Positions 40,260-49,252 of a DNA stretch of 64,000 nucleotides are shown here, one piece after another. Origin of the DNA: Edaphocola aurantiacus. GTDB lineage: Bacteria; Bacteroidota; Bacteroidia; Chitinophagales; Chitinophagaceae. The translations under genes were made by a program, and so were the position numbers. The stretch covers positions 248,001-312,000 of the forward strand of contig NZ_VOSI01000002.1 of assembly GCF_019797745.1 (NCBI RefSeq), written 5' to 3'. The notes under the pieces were generated by a model, which saw nothing but the letters and a program-made list of their open reading frames with translations, was not told where the DNA came from and did not search any database. Position 1 is the first letter of the stretch. Every line of letters starts with the position of its first letter.

Positions 40260-40302
40260 ATAAAAAGAGCGGCACGCAATAATTGCGTGCCGCTCTTTTT
40301 AT
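40260..40302 (+). terminator. Terminator after the type B sorting-domain gene
   Basis: 21-bp perfect arms (40260-40280 and 40282-40302, core GAGCGGCACGCAAT) with a one-base loop and a T-run, 17 bp past the stop. Confidence 0.9.
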
Positions 40303-40323: not shown

Positions 40324-40335
40324 TGACAAAAATCA
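40324..40335 (+). promoter_or_regulatory. Second TGA-N6-TCA box upstream of the RIC-like gene
   Basis: TGACAAAAATCA is a TGA-N6-TCA palindrome centred at 40329.5, exactly 22 bp (two helical turns) upstream of the box at 40346-40357. Both begin GCTGACA. It may be a second Crp/Fnr-type half of a tandem operator. Confidence 0.4.
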
Positions 40336-40336
40336 T

Positions 40337-40366
40337 AAAAGGGGCTGACATTCATCAGCCCCTTTT
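40337..40366 (+). promoter_or_regulatory. Palindrome with TGA-N6-TCA core: predicted Crp/Fnr-type operator, possibly also a terminator
   Basis: Arms AAAAGGGGCTGA (40337-40348) and its exact complement (40355-40366) flank CATTCA. The core TGA-N6-TCA is centred at 40351.5, 29.5 bp upstream of the TAATTTTG box at 40381. The stem is also strong enough to act as a second terminator for the upstream gene. Location relative to the promoter fits a class II activator site. Confidence 0.5.
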
Positions 40367-40380
40367 GCATTTGTGCCGGC

Positions 40381-40388
40381 TAATTTTG
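40381..40388 (+). promoter_or_regulatory. -7 box of the RIC-like/ccoI transcript
   Basis: TAATTTTG matches TAnnTTTG, 20 bp before the ATG at 40409. There is no -33 TTTG at the usual spacing, consistent with a promoter that needs an activator. Confidence 0.6.
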
Positions 40389-40408
40389 TATTCAAACGAA
40401 GCCGGTAT

Positions 40409-40903
40409 ATGAGCATTTCTTTTATCAACTTCAATTCTTTTTCCAAGAAAGAATTGTGCCAGTTTATCGTGCGGAGATGCTATGAGAATATGCGTAAAGC
40501 AATCAGGCGGATGGAAGCACATTATGTGCATCAGGATTTTGATACGGACCGCAATGATGACCTGGAGACAGCACTTCCCTTTATATTTCTGCAGTTCAAG
40601 GAATCCTGCGAACAGCTGATGCTATGGGAAGAGAAACTCATACTTCCGTACTTCCAGGATCAGGATCATACACAGTCCAGGTACCGGGCCAATACGATCC
40701 TGAACCCACATCTGCTCACCGTCAAACATGAAAAGCTGAAACAATTATATGATAAGATAAAGTTTCATAGTGTGCATGACGTACATCACCAGAATGAAAC
40801 ACTGTACCAGATAATGAGGTACGACCTGTTGCAAACCAATATACAACTGCTGGACTGGGAGTATCTGATACAGATACTCCTCTACAGCAAGCCAGTCCCT
40901 TAA
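40409..40903 (+). CDS. RIC/hemerythrin-like protein with degenerate metal site, next to ccoI
   Basis: A 164-residue protein from the ATG at 40409 (MSISFINFNSF). An in-frame ATG at 40373 would lie upstream of the predicted start of transcription, so the shorter form is preferred. It resembles the C-terminal hemerythrin domain of RIC/YtfE di-iron repair proteins: FIVRRCYENMRKAIRRM, FKESCEQLMLWEEKLILPYF (parallel to H-x3-E-E-x-I-L-F-P), LTVKHEKLKQLYDKIK, then LLDWEYLIQILLY. By eye against remembered YtfE, only the third His and one Glu remain; the other His ligands are replaced by residues such as Leu and Trp. It precedes ccoI by 37 bp. Its function is unknown; a non-catalytic sensor or assembly role in oxidase biogenesis is inference. 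Confidence 0.6.
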   Translation: MSISFINFNSFSKKELCQFIVRRCYENMRKAIRRMEAHYVHQDFDTDRNDDLETALPFIFLQFKESCEQLMLWEEKLILPYFQDQDHTQSRYRANTILNPHLLTVKHEKLKQLYDKIKFHSVHDVHHQNETLYQIMRYDLLQTNIQLLDWEYLIQILLYSKPVP

Positions 40904-40940
40904 GACCTCACCTGTCCTACTTCAACTCAAACAAAACAAC

Positions 40941-43364
40941 ATGGTGAACGAAACTGTATTACAGACGGCTACGGCTACTGTTTGCTATCACTGCGGAGAA
41001 GATTGTCCCAACAACAGCATCCTGTATGATGATAAAGTATTTTGCTGTAGCGGTTGCCAGACCGTATACACCCTATTGCAGGAGAATGGCCTCTGCAATT
41101 ATTACAACCTGAACGAACATGCAGGTATTAACCGGAGAGAAGTCATCCGGAAAGATAAATTTGCGTTCCTGGAAGATCAGTCTATCCGGCAGGCGCTCAT
41201 CCGGTTCAAAAACGAGGCCGAGACCCACGTAACGTTTTACATTCCCTACATACACTGCAGTAGCTGTATGTATCTCCTGGAGCAGTTATACCGGATTCAT
41301 CCTGGTGTAATCCGTACCGACATCAACTTCCTTAAAAAAGAAGCCAGTATTATTTTCAATGAAAAGCAACTCCCCCTGCGGGCTTTGGTAGAGCTGCTTA
41401 CAGAACTGGGCTACGAACCTCATCTCAGCCTGCAGCAAATGAAACAGGAAAAGCCGAAAGTTAATCGCAGACTGGTCTACCGCCTGGGTGTTGCCGGATT
41501 TTGTTTCGGCAATATTATGCTGATGAGTTTCCCCGAATACTTCTCTGAAGATGTACAACAGGAAGCTTACCTGGGCAGTATCTTCCGCTATCTTAATCTT
41601 CTGCTGGCACTGCCTGTATTTTTCTATTGTTCCTCCATATTCCTGGCCTCTGCCTGGAAAGGTTTAAAACATAAGCACATCAATATCGACTTCCCCGTTG
41701 CCATAGCCATTGTAGCCACCTTCGGGCGTAGTGTAGTCGATGTCCTTTTTCAACAGGGAGCCGGTTATTTCGATTCCCTTTCCGGCATCGTCTTCTTCAT
41801 GCTCATTGGTCGTGTAGTACAGGACAAAACCTACGGCGCACTAAGCTTTGAGCGTGATTATACCGATTACTTTCCTATAGCTGCAACAGTAGTAAAAGAC
41901 GGCCAGACAATTGCACGTCCATTACCGGATATAAAGGCCGGTGATACGCTGAAAATACATAACAACGAACTGGTACCTGCCGATGGTATCCTCGTCAGGG
42001 GAAAAGCCCAGATTGATTATAGTTTCGTGACCGGGGAATCCGTTCCCGTACTGCCGGAAACGGGAGAGATCATCTATGCAGGAGGAAAACAGCTGGGTGC
42101 TGATATAGAACTGCTCACGGTCAAAGAAGTGGCCCAGAGCTACCTTACCGGTTTATGGAACAAAGAACACCAGCAGGATGATGCAGCGATAAAAGCACAT
42201 GAAACGCAGTCTTTCGTACATAAACTCGCCACAAATTTTACCTGGATCGTACTGGCAATTGCACTTATCACCGGGCTATACTGGTGGGCACATGATCCTG
42301 CCAAAATATGGCCTTCTGTCACTGCCATACTCATCATCGCCTGTCCCTGTGCACTGCTGCTGACCTCTACCTTTACAAGGGGCTATATCCTGCGCATATT
42401 GGGCCGAAACGGATTATACCTGCGCAATGCACATGTAATCGAACCACTGGGAAAATTAAACCACCTGGTGTTTGATAAAACCGGTACCCTGACTGCGGCA
42501 GAGCAGATTTCAGCTACCCATTACGGGCCCGAACTGACAATTGAAGAACAGCAGCTCATTGCCTCGCTCACTCACCCCACAACACATGCCATGAGCCGTC
42601 CGGTAAGGGCTATCCTTAACCACGATCATTTATACGAAGTCTTCGGCTTTCATGAATATCCGGGACTAGGCGTAAGTGGTACCGTTAATGGAAAAGAAAT
42701 CCGGATCGGCACTGCAGGATTTATGCAAAGAAGTGCAGAGCACATTGCACAAAAAGGCACCATACTGCTGATCACTATTGATGAAGAGGATAAAGGATAT
42801 TTTGTCTTGACACAGGGCTTAAGAAAAGGAATAGAAGGCCTGCTGCACCGCTTACAAAAGTTGCTGCGTATCTCTATGCTTTCCGGTGATATGCCGCACC
42901 AGGCCAAACTGCTGCAACAGGTAGCCGGACCGGATGTAAGCCTGCACTTCCAGCAGCAACCACATGATAAACTGGCTTATGTGCAGCAACTGCAACAGCA
43001 GGGTAAAACGGTGGCTATGATCGGAGACGGACTAAATGATGCCGGTGCCCTCAGGCAAAGTAATGTTGGCATTTGTATTGCAGAAGATACCAACTCCTTT
43101 ACTCCGGCAGGAGATGCTATTCTGAAAGGCGCGCAGTTGCATATACTGGACAAACTGATCCTGATGAGCAAGAGCAGCAGGCTGATCATTATCCTGTGTT
43201 TCAGTTTTTCGTTCCTCTACAATACCGTTGGTTTAATCCTGGCGGTACAGGCCAGACTATCTCCTATTGCGGCCGCTATATTGATGCCCTGCAGTACCCT
43301 CAGTATCATTTTGCTGACCTATATCGTCAGTAAAATCCGCAGTAAAAAGCTGGGCCTGAAATAG
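40941..43364 (+). CDS. ccoI: CcoI copper-translocating P1B-type ATPase for cbb3 oxidase
   Basis: An 807-residue heavy-metal P-type ATPase of the FixI/CcoI type, which pumps copper for cbb3 oxidase assembly. The N-terminus has a Cys-rich cation-ATPase domain (CYHCGEDCP ... VFCCSGCQTVY), then an HMA-like domain with CSSC (IHCSSCMYLLEQL, about 96-108). Core motifs are TGES (about 355), CPC at 468-470, DKTGT with phosphorylated D512, a THP motif (about 546) and MIGDGLNDAGAL (about 693). About eight membrane helices are seen. It likely shares a transcript with the RIC-like gene upstream. A predicted Crp/Fnr-type promoter separates it from ccoS. Confidence 0.95.
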   Translation: MVNETVLQTATATVCYHCGEDCPNNSILYDDKVFCCSGCQTVYTLLQENGLCNYYNLNEHAGINRREVIRKDKFAFLEDQSIRQALIRFKNEAETHVTFYIPYIHCSSCMYLLEQLYRIHPGVIRTDINFLKKEASIIFNEKQLPLRALVELLTELGYEPHLSLQQMKQEKPKVNRRLVYRLGVAGFCFGNIMLMSFPEYFSEDVQQEAYLGSIFRYLNLLLALPVFFYCSSIFLASAWKGLKHKHINIDFPVAIAIVATFGRSVVDVLFQQGAGYFDSLSGIVFFMLIGRVVQDKTYGALSFERDYTDYFPIAATVVKDGQTIARPLPDIKAGDTLKIHNNELVPADGILVRGKAQIDYSFVTGESVPVLPETGEIIYAGGKQLGADIELLTVKEVAQSYLTGLWNKEHQQDDAAIKAHETQSFVHKLATNFTWIVLAIALITGLYWWAHDPAKIWPSVTAILIIACPCALLLTSTFTRGYILRILGRNGLYLRNAHVIEPLGKLNHLVFDKTGTLTAAEQISATHYGPELTIEEQQLIASLTHPTTHAMSRPVRAILNHDHLYEVFGFHEYPGLGVSGTVNGKEIRIGTAGFMQRSAEHIAQKGTILLITIDEEDKGYFVLTQGLRKGIEGLLHRLQKLLRISMLSGDMPHQAKLLQQVAGPDVSLHFQQQPHDKLAYVQQLQQQGKTVAMIGDGLNDAGALRQSNVGICIAEDTNSFTPAGDAILKGAQLHILDKLILMSKSSRLIIILCFSFSFLYNTVGLILAVQARLSPIAAAILMPCSTLSIILLTYIVSKIRSKKLGLK

Positions 43365-43388
43365 GCATTAATCAAAGTATGATAAAAG

Positions 43389-43416
43389 TCATATTCCGCT
43401 ATGAGTATTGTCATAG
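43389..43416 (+). promoter_or_regulatory. TATGA-N6-TCATA palindrome: predicted Crp/Fnr-type operator of ccoS-ccoNOQP
   Basis: CTATGAGTATTGTCATAG (43399-43416) is an 18-base palindrome with 6-bp arms and the Crp-like half-site layout NNTGA-N6-TCANN. Its centre, 43407.5, lies 29.5 bp before the -7 box at 43437, so near -41.5. A third half-site, TCATA at 43389-43393, lies 6 bp further upstream. Confidence 0.6.
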
Positions 43417-43436
43417 AATAGTCGGGTAGCCGGGAA

Positions 43437-43444
43437 TAATTTTG
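43437..43444 (+). promoter_or_regulatory. -7 box of ccoS-ccoNOQP
   Basis: TAATTTTG matches TAnnTTTG, 16 bp before the ccoS ATG at 43461. A -33 TTTG is missing and the palindrome overlaps that region, as expected for activator-dependent initiation. Confidence 0.6.
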
Positions 43445-43460
43445 TATAAATTTTAAGACA

Positions 43461-43619
43461 ATGAGCGTCATCATCATTTTACTGGGATTGAGCTTATGCG
43501 TGAGCATCGGTTTTCTCATGGCATTTATCTGGTCTGTAAAATCAGGTCAGATGGAAGATGACTACTCTCCTGCACATAAAATATTCTTCGACGATAACCA
43601 GCCCGGAAACGTCCAATAA
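43461..43619 (+). CDS. ccoS: CcoS cbb3-type oxidase assembly protein
   Basis: A 52-residue membrane protein (MSVIIILLGLSLCVSIGFLM...). It has one N-terminal membrane helix (about 2-25) followed by the family's short acidic, aromatic tail (GQMEDDYSPAHKIFFDD). CcoS is needed to insert haem and copper cofactors into cbb3 oxidase. It follows ccoI and precedes ccoNO by 34 bp, the standard order ccoI-ccoS-ccoN. The start is the ATG at 43461, just downstream of the predicted promoter. It is one of two genes here under 60 codons. Confidence 0.9.
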   Translation: MSVIIILLGLSLCVSIGFLMAFIWSVKSGQMEDDYSPAHKIFFDDNQPGNVQ

Positions 43620-43653: not shown

Positions 43654-45831
43654 ATGAATAACGAAGCTATAGTACAAAACACTTCCGGCATGCAGGTAGA
43701 GAAATTCTACTATGATAACAAGACGGTGAAAATGTTTGGTGTTGCAGCCATTTTCTGGGGTGTGATCGGCATGCTCGCAGGAGTTTACATTGCATTTGAA
43801 CTGGCCTTCCCATCCTGGAATCTGGGCTGGGCCCCGATCACCTTTGGACGTATGCGCCCTGTGCATACCAATGCTGTCATCTTTGCCTTCGTCGGCAACA
43901 TTATATACATGGGGGTTTACTACTCCCTGCAACGCCTGCTGAAAGCGCGTATGTTCAGCGACAAACTCAGCAAAATCCACTTCTGGGGCTGGCAACTGAT
44001 TATTCTTTTCGGCGCATTAAGCCTCTGGATGGGCTTTACACAAGGTAAAGAATACGCCGAGCTGGAATGGCCGCTGGATATTGCCATCACACTCATATGG
44101 GTAGTCTTCGGTATCAATATGTTTGGTACGATCCTGAAAAGAAGAGAGCGCCACCTGTATGTGGCTATCTGGTTCTATATCGGCACCTGGGTAGCTGTGG
44201 CTATGCTGCATATTGTAAACTCATTTGCACTGCCCTATTCCGGTATGCATAGCTATAGCTGGTATGCTGGTGTACAGGACGGCCTGGTACAATGGTGGTA
44301 CGGACATAATGCGGTAGCCTTCTTCCTGACTACTCCATTCCTCGGTCTGATGTATTACTTCGTGCCTAAAGCAGCCGGCAGACCTGTATATTCTTACCGC
44401 TGGTCTATTATCCACTTCTGGTCGCTTATCTTCATTTATATCTGGGCTGGGCCACACCACCTGCTCAATACCGCATTACCCGGCTGGGCACAGTCTTTAG
44501 GTACTGTATTTTCCATCATGCTTATTGCACCCTCATGGGGTGGTATGCTCAACGGTTTGCTGACCCTGCGCGGCGCATGGGATAAGGTGCGTGACGAGCC
44601 TGTTCTGAAGTTCTTTGTGGTAGCACTTACCTGTTATGGCATGGCTACATTCGAGGGGCCTATGTTGTCTCTGAAAAGCGTTAATGCCATCAGTCACTAT
44701 ACAGACTGGACCATTGCACACGTACACGTTGGTGCGCTGGGCTGGAACGGATTCCTGGCCTTCGGCGCCATCTATTGGCTGTTTCCGAGATTATACCGCA
44801 CAGAATTATTTTCTAAAAAACTGGCCAATACCCACTTCCTTATCGGCACCCTCGGCATCATCCTGTATGTAGTACCTATGTACTGGGCTGCACTGACACA
44901 GTACATGATGTGGAAGCAGTTTACACCGGAAGGAACACTGAAATATCAGTTCATCGAAACAGTAACCAAAATTGTACCGATGTATGCCTTAAGGGGATTC
45001 GGTGGTCTGCTCTATGTTTCCGGAATATTCCTGCTGATATACAACATCGTCAAAACGGCTAAGAAAGGAAACTTCCTTGCTGAAGAAGAAGCCTTTGCCG
45101 CACCATTACCAAAAGTGATGCCTAAGGTGGCCAAAGAACACTGGCACAACTGGATCGAGCGCCGCCCTGTGCAAATGCTGGTATTAGCCCTGATCGCAGT
45201 CGCTATCGGTGGTATTGTAGAGATGGTACCAACATTCCTGGTCAAATCAAATATTCCATCAATCACTTCTGTGAAACCCTATACCCCGCTTGAGTTACAC
45301 GGCCGTAACATTTATATCCGTGAAGGCTGTTATACCTGTCACTCCCAGATGATACGCCCCTTCCGTCATGAAGTAGCACGTTACGGAGATTATTCTAAAG
45401 CAGGTGAATTTGTGTATGATCATCCGTATCAATGGGGCTCTAAACGCACCGGACCGGATCTGGCCCGTATCGGTGGAAAATACCCGGACAGCTGGCATTA
45501 CAATCATATGCTGGAACCGGAAATGATGACTGCAGGTTCTATCATGCCGGCTTACCCATGGCTGTTCACAGATCGTATCGACAAAACCAAAACACCGGAT
45601 ATCATCAATGCGATGACCAGGCTGGGTGTTCCATACCCTAAAGGATATGATGCTATCGCAAATGACGATCTGGAAAAGCAGGCAATGCAGATCAAAGAAA
45701 GCCTGGCGAAGGATAAAATAAAAGTACAAACAACTGATGAGATCGTAGCCCTGATCGCTTATCTGCAACGCATGGGTACAGACATCAAAAAAGATAACAG
45801 GGACAGCCTGAATATGGCCGTACCGAATTAA
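43654..45831 (+). CDS. ccoNO: Fused CcoN-CcoO, cbb3-type cytochrome c oxidase subunits I/II
   Basis: A 725-residue fusion of the catalytic subunit CcoN and mono-haem subunit CcoO. Start at the ATG at 43654 (MNNEAIVQ); an earlier in-frame ATG at 43558 would run into ccoS. The CcoN part (about 1-480, about 12 membrane helices) has haem and copper ligands in RMRPVHTNAVIF, WWYGHNAVAFFLTTP, WAGPHHLLNTALP and DWTIAHVHVGALGWNG. After a linker (about 485-545), the CcoO part has CXXCH in EGCYTCHSQMIRPFRHE (about 558-562), then a cytochrome c fold. It reduces oxygen with high affinity and pumps protons. Fusion is common in Bacteroidota. Confidence 0.95.
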   Translation: MNNEAIVQNTSGMQVEKFYYDNKTVKMFGVAAIFWGVIGMLAGVYIAFELAFPSWNLGWAPITFGRMRPVHTNAVIFAFVGNIIYMGVYYSLQRLLKARMFSDKLSKIHFWGWQLIILFGALSLWMGFTQGKEYAELEWPLDIAITLIWVVFGINMFGTILKRRERHLYVAIWFYIGTWVAVAMLHIVNSFALPYSGMHSYSWYAGVQDGLVQWWYGHNAVAFFLTTPFLGLMYYFVPKAAGRPVYSYRWSIIHFWSLIFIYIWAGPHHLLNTALPGWAQSLGTVFSIMLIAPSWGGMLNGLLTLRGAWDKVRDEPVLKFFVVALTCYGMATFEGPMLSLKSVNAISHYTDWTIAHVHVGALGWNGFLAFGAIYWLFPRLYRTELFSKKLANTHFLIGTLGIILYVVPMYWAALTQYMMWKQFTPEGTLKYQFIETVTKIVPMYALRGFGGLLYVSGIFLLIYNIVKTAKKGNFLAEEEAFAAPLPKVMPKVAKEHWHNWIERRPVQMLVLALIAVAIGGIVEMVPTFLVKSNIPSITSVKPYTPLELHGRNIYIREGCYTCHSQMIRPFRHEVARYGDYSKAGEFVYDHPYQWGSKRTGPDLARIGGKYPDSWHYNHMLEPEMMTAGSIMPAYPWLFTDRIDKTKTPDIINAMTRLGVPYPKGYDAIANDDLEKQAMQIKESLAKDKIKVQTTDEIVALIAYLQRMGTDIKKDNRDSLNMAVPN

Positions 45832-46045: not shown

Positions 46046-47227
46046 ATGAGAAAAATATTATCACTAATCGCCCTTACAGCCCCTAATATATTGTGGGCCG
46101 CAGACCCAACTCCTGCTACAGCAAGTGCAGGTCCGGAGAGTCCATGGGCAGCCCTGGCCAATCCTGTAGCCATCATCATGGTCACTATACTGATCGTACT
46201 GCTCTTCGTTATTATTTTCCTGAGCCGTATTGTACTGAACTCCCTGGAGTTTTACAAGGCTAAACGGCAGGCCGAAAAACGCAAAAGCAATAGTAGTACA
46301 CTGACGGCAATATTAATACCACTCCTCCTGTTCTCCGGCCTGAATGCCTTTGCACAGACAGCCGATGAGGCTGCCGAAGCGGCACCCAAAGCTGTGGAGC
46401 TGATAGGAGGCATGAACCCTACATTGTTCTATACGCTTTTTGGTGTATTTATCCTGGAAGTAGTGGTCATTGTTGTCCTGCTTTCTGTAACCCGCTTCCT
46501 GGTTGGCCTGGAGCGCAAAAAAGAGTATAAGAAAGAAAAAGGGATCAGCTGGTGGGAAAAAATGAATGCCACCAAATCATTGGATGCTGCCTCAGAAGCC
46601 GAGGCCAACTGGGGGCATAGTTATGATGGCATTGAGGAGCTGGACAATCCTACACCACCCTGGTGGGTAGCCGGCTTTGCCCTCTCCGTCATTGTAGGGG
46701 TCATATACTTCTACCGCTATGACATTGCGAAAACGGCTCCGAACCAGTTGGAAGAATATGCGATTGAGGTACAGAAAGGAGAAGCAGCAAAGCTTGCCTA
46801 TCTCGCTTCTGCAGCCAATAATGTAGATGAAAATACAGTAACGGTATTAACTGAGGCAACAGATATTGAAGCCGGAAAAGCAGTATTTGTACAGGTATGT
46901 GCAGCCTGCCACGGAGCAGATGGCGGTGGTAGTGTAGGACCAAACCTCACAGATGACTACTGGCTGCATGGTGGTGGTATCAAAGACATCTTCCGCACCA
47001 TTACAGTCGGCGTTCAGGATAAGGGAATGAAATCCTGGAAAGATGATTACTCGCCAAGACAGATCCAGCAAATTGCCAGCTATATTAAAACACTGCATGG
47101 TACCAAACCCGCGACACCAAAAGCTTCGCAAGGAGAGTTGTATATAGAGGAAAGCAAAGAAAACAGTACACAAGCTACAGCCGCTCATGGGACAGCTACT
47201 GCAGCGGACAGTACATCAGTACAGTAA
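46046..47227 (+). CDS. ccoP: CcoP-like cbb3 cytochrome c subunit with a single CXXCH
   Basis: A 393-residue membrane-anchored cytochrome c subunit. Hydrophobic segments lie near 38-58, 82-103, 131-152 and 210-228. The N-terminal CcoP region contains WGHSYDGIEELDNPTPPWW. One CXXCH is visible (C285, C288, H289 in VCAACHGADGGG), followed by GPNLTDDYWLHGGG with methionine ligand candidate KGMKSW. Proteobacterial CcoP usually has two CXXCH motifs; here I see one. It passes electrons to the CcoNO core. Confidence 0.92.
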   Translation: MRKILSLIALTAPNILWAADPTPATASAGPESPWAALANPVAIIMVTILIVLLFVIIFLSRIVLNSLEFYKAKRQAEKRKSNSSTLTAILIPLLLFSGLNAFAQTADEAAEAAPKAVELIGGMNPTLFYTLFGVFILEVVVIVVLLSVTRFLVGLERKKEYKKEKGISWWEKMNATKSLDAASEAEANWGHSYDGIEELDNPTPPWWVAGFALSVIVGVIYFYRYDIAKTAPNQLEEYAIEVQKGEAAKLAYLASAANNVDENTVTVLTEATDIEAGKAVFVQVCAACHGADGGGSVGPNLTDDYWLHGGGIKDIFRTITVGVQDKGMKSWKDDYSPRQIQQIASYIKTLHGTKPATPKASQGELYIEESKENSTQATAAHGTATAADSTSVQ

Positions 47228-47338: not shown

Positions 47339-48736
47339 ATGGCATTTATTAAAGAGAGTGAACACTCTTTCAGAGACGAGCTATCAACCATAGACGAAAA
47401 AGGCAAACGTAAGTGGATCTATCCTTCAAAACCAAAAGGAAAATTCACCACTGCACGCTATTACCTGAGTTACCTGTATTACGCATTGTTCTTCGGTCTT
47501 CCGCTCATACATATTCATGGACATCCGCTATTACAATTCAATATTCCGGAAGGTAAGTTCATTATTTTCGGCACCATATTCTGGCCCCAGGATTTTTTCA
47601 TTTTCGGGCTCATCATGGTTGCAGCCATCCTTTCGATTGCCCTGTTTACCATGGCCTACGGCCGTATTTTCTGCGGATGGATCTGTCCGCAAACCATATT
47701 CATGGAAACCCTGTTCCGCCGTATCGAATATGCAATTGACGGAGACGCCGCGCAGCAGCGCATCTTGAAAAAACAACCCTGGACCACTAAAAAAATTATC
47801 AAAAGAGTCCTCAAACAAAGTCTCCTCATTGCACTATCCTTCCTGATCGCAAATACTTTTCTGGCCTACATCATAGGCACAAAATCCTTGCTTAAAATCA
47901 TGAGCGAACCGGTAATGCAGCATGTCGGCGGCTTCATGGCCATACTATTATTTACCGGGGTATTCTACGGAGTATTTGCCTACATGCGCGAACTGGTATG
48001 TACGAACATCTGCCCCTACGGAAGACTACAAAGTGTACTGCTCGATAAGGATTCTATAGTAGTGGCCTACGATTATAAAAGAGGAGAGCCCCGTGCCAAA
48101 TTCCGTAAAGTGCAGGGCGATGCAGGTGATTGCATTGACTGTCTGCAATGTGTGCGGGTATGTCCTACTGGTATTGACATCCGTAATGGGACACAGCTGG
48201 AGTGTATTAATTGCACCGCCTGTATTGATGCCTGCGATGCTATGATGGTAAACATAAAACGGGATACCGGCCTGATCCGTTATGCATCTGAAAGCAATAT
48301 TGCAGAAGGCAAAAAAAGTGTTTTCACCTTAAAGCTAAAAGTATATACCAGCATTCTGGCCATTATCATGATCGGCATTACAGTGCTGCTCGCAAAGAGT
48401 AAAAACGTAGATGGAAATATCATCCGTTCGGCAGGCATGTTATTTCAAGAGCGCGGTACAGACAGCATTTCAAACCTGTATAATGCCAAATTTATCAACA
48501 AAACATTTGACCGTTTCGATCTTAGTCTGAAGCTGGAAGACCGGAAAGGATATATACAGATGGTGGGCAAGGAGCAGATCGGTATGCGCCCGGAAAGTCA
48601 GGGCAGTACTAATTTCTTTATCGTACTACCTCGTACAGAAATCCGCAACCGGAAGGAGAAGCTAAAGATCGGTGTATACGAAAACGGGAAGCTGGTCATG
48701 TACTTACACACCACTTTCCTCGGACCAATGTCCTGA
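47339..48736 (+). CDS. ccoG: CcoG/FixG cbb3 oxidase accessory iron-sulfur protein
   Basis: A 465-residue membrane protein of the FixG/CcoG/RdxA type, which reduces Cu(II) for cbb3 assembly. The N-terminal half has several membrane helices with FCGWICPQTIFMETLFR (CxxxCP, about 110-126) and MRELVCTNICPYGRLQSVL. The ferredoxin-like core near 264-300 has CIDCLQCVRVCPTGID and CINCTACIDACDAMM, two 4Fe-4S sites. The C-terminal about 120 residues are a periplasmic beta domain. It is followed by ccoH at 33 bp. Confidence 0.95.
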   Translation: MAFIKESEHSFRDELSTIDEKGKRKWIYPSKPKGKFTTARYYLSYLYYALFFGLPLIHIHGHPLLQFNIPEGKFIIFGTIFWPQDFFIFGLIMVAAILSIALFTMAYGRIFCGWICPQTIFMETLFRRIEYAIDGDAAQQRILKKQPWTTKKIIKRVLKQSLLIALSFLIANTFLAYIIGTKSLLKIMSEPVMQHVGGFMAILLFTGVFYGVFAYMRELVCTNICPYGRLQSVLLDKDSIVVAYDYKRGEPRAKFRKVQGDAGDCIDCLQCVRVCPTGIDIRNGTQLECINCTACIDACDAMMVNIKRDTGLIRYASESNIAEGKKSVFTLKLKVYTSILAIIMIGITVLLAKSKNVDGNIIRSAGMLFQERGTDSISNLYNAKFINKTFDRFDLSLKLEDRKGYIQMVGKEQIGMRPESQGSTNFFIVLPRTEIRNRKEKLKIGVYENGKLVMYLHTTFLGPMS

Positions 48737-48769: not shown

Positions 48770-49252
48770 ATGGAATACCAAGTCAAAACAAAAAAGCCAT
48801 ACGGCTTCTGGAATTGGGGTACTATACTCACCTTCGTTTTTATCCTGGGGGCTTCAGGAATTATCTTCATGGTGTACCGCTCACAGCAAATGTCTGCAGA
48901 ACTGGTTACAGACAATTATTATGCAGAGGAATTGCAATTTCAAAAAAAGATAGACGCACGTACCGCAGCCAATACCCTATCCCGCAAAGTGGCTATTGAA
49001 TATATGGATGCACAGGATGCAATCGTGGTATCCTTTCCGCAGGAATGCCTGAAAGAACATATAAAAGGCCATATCTATTTCTACAATCCAGCTAGTGGCA
49101 AACAGGATCGCATTATTCCCATCACTATGGATGCACAGGGCTTGCAGGTGATCGCCGCAGGCAAGATCGACAAAGGCACCTATTCTGTACAGGTGGAGTG
49201 GAGCATGAATGACAGGGCTTACAGTACAGATGTTCCGTTTACCAAACTATAG
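48770..49252 (+). CDS. ccoH: FixH/CcoH family protein
   Basis: A 160-residue protein with one membrane helix (about 15-40, WGTILTFVFILGASGIIFMVY) after a short cytoplasmic head. The characteristic DNYYAEELQFQKKIDA stretch (about 47-62) comes next, then a periplasmic beta domain. FixH/CcoH binds CcoN and is needed for cbb3 stability. It lies 33 bp downstream of ccoG and 4 bp before the TauE/SafE-type gene, so all three are likely cotranscribed. Confidence 0.9.
   Translation: MEYQVKTKKPYGFWNWGTILTFVFILGASGIIFMVYRSQQMSAELVTDNYYAEELQFQKKIDARTAANTLSRKVAIEYMDAQDAIVVSFPQECLKEHIKGHIYFYNPASGKQDRIIPITMDAQGLQVIAAGKIDKGTYSVQVEWSMNDRAYSTDVPFTKL

Follow-up and report, generated by a model that had tools for sequence, protein, structure and literature searches.

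Paired FNR-type sites 22 bp apart as candidate low-oxygen operators at two cbb3 oxidase promoters of Edaphocola aurantiacus

Introduction

How Bacteroidota sense falling oxygen and switch on the cbb3 oxidase is not described in the papers that we found; in Flavobacterium psychrophilum, the accessible part of one report indicates that the oxidase is up-regulated under oxygen limitation, and neither "Crp" nor "TGA" occurs in its main text (PMC9723704). The question is raised by a cbb3 locus of Edaphocola aurantiacus, located in a 64,000-nucleotide stretch of contig NZ_VOSI01000002.1 (hereafter the window, meaning that whole stretch), with one promoter before a gene for a RIC-like protein, followed by ccoI, and one before ccoS, followed by ccoNO. 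A sequence-only reading had proposed a single TGA-N6-TCA palindrome as a class II operator of the Crp/Fnr type at each promoter. We found that each palindrome is one half of a pair of sites exactly 22 base pairs (bp) apart. It is probable (about 80%) that side-by-side FNR dimers on each 22-bp pair, the proximal one acting as a class II activator, switch on the cbb3 genes at low oxygen. The letters themselves establish the pairs, their spacing, their offset to the promoter, their conservation, the confinement of the exact layout to two promoters of this genome and the linkage to a regulator gene in relatives.

Site pairs in the window and in the genome

The listing of all window sites places both palindromes, each of them exact, where the sequence-only reading had put them, and the 29.5-bp distance from the palindrome centre to the -7 box is the same at both promoters (Table 1). 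What did not hold is the view of one palindrome as the whole operator, since each promoter has another TGA-N6-TCA exactly 22 bp further upstream and the palindrome first noticed is only the proximal half. Both distal sites in the window, TGACAAAAATCA and TGATAAAAGTCA, have an AAAA core, and TGA follows a C or an A at each of the four window sites.

On its own, one palindrome would carry little weight, because single sites are just slightly enriched in the window (27 observed against 18.7 expected; 4 of 100 shuffles reach 27). For pairs, simple arithmetic from 27 sites in 64 kb gives an expectation of about 0.01 at one given spacing, against the two observed, both of which directly precede cbb3-locus genes. 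Pattern searches of the full 3.69-Mb genome, with the reversed pattern as the control, found the exact 22-bp pair at two places, both at this locus, and the layout TGA-N6-TCA-N23-TAnnTTTG at the same two promoters, with none in the control. The absence of such a palindrome before several other TAnnTTTG boxes, noted informally in the sequence-only reading, thus extends to the whole genome. Even with up to three mismatches, the full layout (pair plus TAnnTTTG) was found only at these two places, both of them mismatch-free. The longer palindrome at ccoS, CTATGA-N6-TCATAG, occurs once in the genome and its control also once, and says little on its own.

Conservation of the spacing in relatives

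We compared the best 80 of 591 ccoNO-bearing loci from the genome collection (L002-L081), 117 genomes of the same family drawn evenly out of a larger number, and 198 genomes of the phylum. The 80 ccoNO loci contain 48 pairs at 22 bp, compared with at most four at any other spacing from 1 to 60 and an expectation of about 0.29 for any one spacing. At least one 22-bp pair was found in 30 of these loci, with Chitinophaga, Pontibacter, Flexithrix, Larkinella and Salibacter among the genera, and none in the other 50, of which at least three (L007, L012 and L051) have fewer than 450 bases before ccoNO. The family sample contains 637 pairs at 22 bp, distributed over 100 genomes, against 15 for the reversed pattern, an excess of about 40-fold over the reversed pattern and about 10-fold over 23-bp pairs. 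Pairs at 23 bp were found at 65 places in 32 of the 117 genomes, eight of the 65 being one repeated element; 22 bp is therefore the rule but not absolute, because a few clades use 23 bp. The eightfold element is an identical 35-base stretch carrying a 23-bp pair (G106:C1), probably a repeated or mobile element rather than a regulon. Two genomes of one genus (G013 and G103) use both spacings and have one exact triple each. Exact triples (22 + 22 bp) exist in 5 of the 117 family genomes, two of them from one genus, and in none of the control, and the letters of the Chitinophaga costaii ccoS promoter show two good sites plus a degenerate third one, located one 22-bp step nearer the box at the right offset. 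In the phylum sample, a pair was found in 84 of the 198 genomes, many with a count of one, near background.

Within the window's genus, both pairs and both offsets are kept in G113 although the flanks have diverged, so that the loss of the palindromes in relatives, which would have spoken against the sequence-only reading, is not seen; the FNR of G113 is 78% identical to that of E. aurantiacus. The near-identical relative G030 adds no evidence, because it carries the window's two 34-base pairs letter for letter.

Two or three tandem-site promoters stand in series in gene clusters of L184 (4639, 8095 and 12023) and L185 (3528 and 7238) that encode a protein resembling ethylbenzene dehydrogenase (PF09459, as tested for L184). 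The 22-bp pair at L181:9044, which has TAGTTTTG at the offset typical of such pairs, falls within a 534-residue open frame and is either a chance match, an internal promoter or a sign of a wrong frame.

Promoter geometry and site strength

When gaps of up to 80 bases on both sides of each pair were considered, a gap of 23 bases to TAnnTTTG, corresponding to 29.5 bp from the centre, was found for 19 of the 48 pairs of the cco loci, where no other gap is seen more than once, and for 17 of the 55 pairs of the family loci, where no other gap is seen more than twice; under this strict box, the fixed offset holds for roughly one third to two fifths of the pairs. For closer comparison we used 59 distinct, oriented promoters chosen for a pair and TAnnTT[TC][GA] at the 23-base gap, leaving out those of the window and of G030; cco genes are over-represented among them, since ccoNO or FNR served to retrieve many of the loci. 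The gene behind the promoter is ccoS in 25 cases and ccoI or the RIC-like gene in 10. As the sequence-only reading had stated, both window promoters lack a -33 TTTG at the normal spacing, and none of the 59 has one at spacers of 17-23 (3 of 59 at spacers of 15-16), so that the weak or missing upstream element typical of class II promoters is found here as well.

In these 59 promoters, the distal site fits TGAY-N4-RTCA in 51 cases and the proximal site in 39 (discordant 18 versus 6, p = 0.023), and the distal core is more A+T-rich than the proximal core (p = 6e-4). The base before the distal TGA is A or C in 46 of 59 and T in 5. The Crp/Fnr-type class II layout claimed in the sequence-only reading is indeed common to both promoters and kept in relatives, but the FNR-type consensus fits better than the Crp operator TGTGA-N6-TCACA with its GTGA/TCAC half-sites, G preceding TGA at just 8 distal and 6 proximal sites of the 59 promoters. 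A further reason to prefer the FNR type is that, in relatives, the regulator gene adjoining such sites encodes an FNR-like protein with cysteines near its N terminus.

The FNR-like candidate regulator

The genome of E. aurantiacus encodes 14 proteins with a cyclic-nucleotide-monophosphate-binding (cNMP-binding) domain (PF00027), of which one is the sole genome match to FNR or to the hybrids described below at E ≤ 1e-25, the threshold of our regulator search. It combines the cNMP fold with a Crp-type helix-turn-helix (HTH) domain (PF00027 85.1 bits, PF13545 60.6 and PF00325 28.3). With 100.9 bits against a curated cut-off of 228 for NF008365 (PRK11161, Fnr), the sequence classes it as FNR-like, outside that named subfamily; among solved sequences, 2gau is the closest and A. 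fischeri FNR ranks lower. The internal cysteine of FNR is C122 in E. coli numbering. Three N-terminal cysteines and an internal one are present here as C18, C21, C30 and C120, of which C18, C21 and C120 align with cysteines of the A. fischeri FNR chain, while C30 has no column match (CX2CX8C instead of CX2CX5C).

The recognition helix of FNR reads E-x-x-S-R, as in the E-T-I-S-R of the A. fischeri chain. Its serine is linked to the first T of TTGA. In the present protein, E206 and R210 are kept but isoleucine (Ile209) replaces the serine, a helix hereafter written E..IR, and the same three residues are found in 43 of 43 FNR-type rows. The isoleucine would fit the rarity of T before the distal TGA, and less so the proximal one. 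Among L002-L081, an E..IR regulator is in view at 12 loci, 8 of which have the 22-bp pair, and an E..SR regulator at 5 (L032, L034, which is a fragment, L036, L048 and L050), none of which has it; no alternative motif was found in the E..SR loci. We do not claim a correlation between helix and motif, since the loci are too few for this and too closely related.

In 7 of 10 relatives picked for strong FNR matches, with all pairs listed and no random draw, the orthologous fnr gene lies 10-87 bp from a tandem site and adjoins a RIC-like gene (G014, G036, G060, G062, G073, G080 and G090). Read gene by gene, L176 and L177 have the order fnr, pair, RIC-like gene, ccoI, pair and ccoNO, and in G090 ccoS, which has a separate pair, is found on the opposite side of fnr. 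The other three relatives have the fnr gene elsewhere: G030 and G113, which belong to the window's genus, and G040, where the two are on separate contigs. In E. aurantiacus itself, it is about 130 kb from the cbb3 locus, and no exact TGA-N6-TCA was found in the short stretch preceding it. This fnr directly follows what, by eye, looks like the large subunit gene of an aa3-type oxidase (L166:6888-9535, on G000:C2). Across the family sample, the 108 genomes with an FNR- or hybrid-like match have a mean of 5.8 pairs, compared with 0.78 in the nine without (p = 1.3e-4).

Many matches of the FNR search are open frames of about 350 to 400 residues; the one tested, in L171, contains a cNMP domain and a Crp HTH in addition to a response-regulator receiver. 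These receiver-Crp hybrids (e.g., L171:6249-7310) resemble the FNR described here in the E..IR helix, present in 15 of 19 hybrid-type rows, and in that several adjoin 22-bp pairs, but they have a receiver domain in front and no conserved four-cysteine set. The site type is hence not exclusive to a cysteine-bearing FNR. In L171:6249-8545 and L173:8859-11185, such hybrids stand beside PAS histidine kinases and 22-bp pairs, and by sequence they seem to be a two-component cousin using the same site type. At E ≤ 1e-25, no hybrid match was found in the genome of E. aurantiacus, only the FNR.

Proposed mechanism and alternative readings

At low oxygen, the FNR-like regulator would presumably assemble a [4Fe-4S] cluster on C18, C21, C30 and C120 and then dimerise. 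FNR dimers would occupy both TGA-N6-TCA sites of each promoter as neighbours on the same face of the helix, because 22 bp is about two helical turns. The dimer at about -41.5 would act as a class II activator by touching RNA polymerase, in place of the -33 contact that these promoters lack. Its partner at about -63.5, bound to what is on average the better match to the consensus, would help to load the weaker proximal site and may contact the alpha subunit. The operons RIC-like-ccoI and ccoS-ccoNO-ccoP onward would then be co-induced as oxygen falls. Two dimers on the same face, with the proximal one in the class II position, would explain why the spacing is strict, why one offset is preferred, why the -33 element is missing and why the distal site is the stronger one; binding, cooperativity, oxygen response, activation and start sites at the two promoters are inferred.

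Several observations weigh against this mechanism. The reversed control of the full layout at up to three mismatches likewise gives two matches, with mismatches, and the search for pairs with one mismatch adds eight places in the genome against five in the control. None of these eight has a TAnnTTTG where one would be expected, on either flank, and they were rejected as further targets, the box being missing and the number close to the control; no additional degenerate target is claimed in this genome, though some may exist. Among the 59 promoters, 24 have no tested gene within 1 kb, and the base before the proximal TGA is A or C in just 35 and T in 18, which makes the isoleucine-for-serine argument weak at the proximal site. 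Four of the 12 E..IR loci have no pair (L010, L011, L043 and L071), nor do several genomes with a good FNR match (G016, G025 and G047). The linkage to fnr rests on other genera, because the gene is far from the locus in the window's genus, and on 10 genomes that were chosen rather than random. All four cysteines are present in just 19 of 38 distinct FNR-type rows, and C120 in 37 of 38 (the own copy, four duplicate rows, the helix fragment L034 and the unrelated match L116 were removed, and three of the 38 are possibly shortened by the chosen start), so that oxygen sensing may not be uniform. Finally, 13 other cNMP-binding proteins exist besides the FNR-like one.

That one of these 13 uses the sites, in response to a signal other than oxygen, is unlikely. 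The size of the superfamily in this genome is in its favour, as are the E..IR hybrids adjoining such pairs in other genomes, but a single FNR- or hybrid-like protein passes the threshold here, a member of the group whose genes lie close to tandem sites in 7 of the 10 chosen relatives.

It is also clearly improbable that the operator works through one class II Crp/Fnr site alone, at -41.5, with the upstream palindrome as a dispensable auxiliary or an evolutionary spare. The fixed offset to the -7 box does belong to the proximal site, and E. coli FNR, in the accessible part of PMC3688515, has mostly one-site peaks in its direct regulon and activating sites mostly near -41.5. Against this reading stand the better fit of the distal site to the consensus, the family-wide excess of 22-bp pairs and the triples.

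The idea that the pair serves repression or two competing regulators instead of cooperative activation draws on the rhizobia, where a second, proximal anaerobox represses Rhizobium leguminosarum fnrN according to the part of the report available (PMC7888657). That box lies at -2, inside the promoter, whereas both sites here are upstream of the -7 box, and the half-sites of the distal and proximal sites are identical; we regard this idea as very improbable.

It can hardly be the case that the RIC-like palindrome is nothing more than a terminator stem that resembles the ccoS site by coincidence, since, although the 13-pair hairpin around it has A and T runs at its foot and is listed by the terminator scan (minus strand only), G113 keeps the pair and the offset while its letters around the proximal site no longer form a GC-rich hairpin at that place, the preceding gene already has a stronger hairpin, just upstream, that can terminate it, and the ccoS pair folds, as palindromes do, into just two A+U-rich stems (-11.4 kcal/mol). 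The hairpin is thus a local addition that does not account for the palindrome, and terminator and operator roles could coexist.

Beyond cooperative activation by paired FNR dimers at this locus, a broader proposition has about even chances: Bacteroidota FNR-type and receiver-Crp hybrid regulators may act as phased arrays of touching dimers 22 bp apart rather than as lone dimers, in which a strong distal site recruits the dimer of a weak activating site and a unit of two (sometimes three) dimers normally fires TAnnTTTG promoters without a -33 element, giving a sharp oxygen switch.

Genes and neighbouring features of the locus

The RIC-like protein has no Pfam or NCBIfam match, and its relative in L176 scores 24.9 bits for Hemerythrin, just below the cut-off of 25.3. 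Its AlphaFold model (mean predicted local distance difference test score 79.6) has YtfE/RIC structures as all of its 11 best matches, with template-modelling scores of 0.67-0.77 on the query but modest E values of 0.013 to 0.14. A diiron site is doubtful, because no histidine column reaches 70% in the alignment of 23 RIC-like proteins; as modelled, the protein is perhaps a RIC fold without a diiron site.

Table 1. Features of the cbb3 locus and its probable regulator gene; positions are those of the window unless a contig is given.
Feature	Position	Strand	Centre and placement (relative to the predicted start)	Remarks
Distal FNR-type site TGACAAAAATCA, RIC-like/ccoI promoter	40324..40335		40329.5, near -63.5	exact 22-bp partner of proximal site; kept in G113
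Proximal site TGACATTCATCA, RIC-like/ccoI promoter	40346..40357		40351.5, near -41.5	exact palindrome; within hairpin 40336-40367
-7 box TAATTTTG, RIC-like/ccoI promoter	40381..40388	+		pattern match
Distal FNR-type site TGATAAAAGTCA, ccoS promoter	43380..43391		43385.5, near -63.5	exact 22-bp partner
Proximal site TGAGTATTGTCA, ccoS promoter	43402..43413		43407.5, near -41.5	exact palindrome
-7 box TAATTTTG, ccoS promoter	43437..43444	+		pattern match
Strong hairpin after upstream gene	40262..40300			-30.1 kcal/mol, z -8.3; probably terminator of upstream gene; not in terminator scan list
13-pair hairpin, core AAAAGGGGCTGA-CATTCA-TCAGCCCCTTTT	40336..40367		overlaps proximal site	-20.5 kcal/mol, z -6.1
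RIC-like gene (164 amino acids)	40409..40903	+		predicted four-helix bundle, best fold matches YtfE/RIC
ccoI-like heavy-metal P-type ATPase	40941..43364	+		TIGR01494 177.7 bits, above cut-off 62.3; TIGR01525 302.8 bits, below cut-off 346.25
ccoS (52 amino acids)	43461..43619	+		PF03597 FixS, 62.8 bits
ccoNO fusion, cbb3 oxidase subunits I/II	43657..45831	+		NF011053, 1249.8 bits
ccoP-like	46046..47227	+		TIGR00782 107.9 bits, below curated cut-off 179.95
ccoG	47339..48736	+		TIGR02745, 395.8 bits
ccoH (FixH)	48770..49252	+		PF05751, 72.5 bits
FNR-like regulator gene	G000:C2:418887-419618		about 130 kb from cbb3 locus	

Comparison with known systems

No description of 22-bp FNR pairs in Bacteroidota was found in the literature searched, which is weak evidence of absence, the coverage being mostly without subscription papers; the accessible parts of PMC8510549, PMC7888657, PMC10470549, PMC3411108, PMC3688515 and PMC11784457 describe no such pair, and a term search of the available part of PMC12531629 gave no matches. 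A fixed grammar of a 22-bp pair followed by 23 bases to TAnnTTTG would make low-oxygen regulons of the Bacteroidota predictable from sequence and would assign their regulator. With two exact target promoters, this genome also offers a clean system for how side-by-side FNR dimers set the oxygen threshold at an unusual Bacteroidota promoter.

Tandem-bound FNR, with more than one FNR at one E. coli promoter, is reportedly the subject of a 2003 paper by Barnard, Green and Busby, to judge by its title. In the accessible part of PMC3688515, 89% of the direct-regulon peaks of E. coli FNR from chromatin immunoprecipitation are one-site, and 19 of 23 activating sites lie near -41.5. The two promoters of the present locus resemble such class II promoters in having a Crp/Fnr-type palindrome, with a predicted centre near -41.5, before low-oxygen respiratory genes, but they differ in the second site at exactly 22 bp, in having mostly A or C instead of T before the distal TGA and in the Bacteroidota TAnnTTTG box. 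In the case of the rhizobial FixK/FnrN proteins, the available part of PMC7888657 places TTGAT-N4-ATCAA anaeroboxes before fixNOQP and fixGHIS, so that FNR-family control of the cbb3 oxidase and its assembly genes is common to both systems. Unlike this locus, however, fixNOQP9/10 and fixGHIS9/10 have one activating box each, and fnrN has boxes at -34 and -2, 32 bp apart, one of which represses (PMC7888657). One site per activating promoter is the rule in the accessible parts of the E. coli FNR and FixK/FnrN reports, and the two-site arrangement described here is real and more specific than the single palindrome from which the analysis started.

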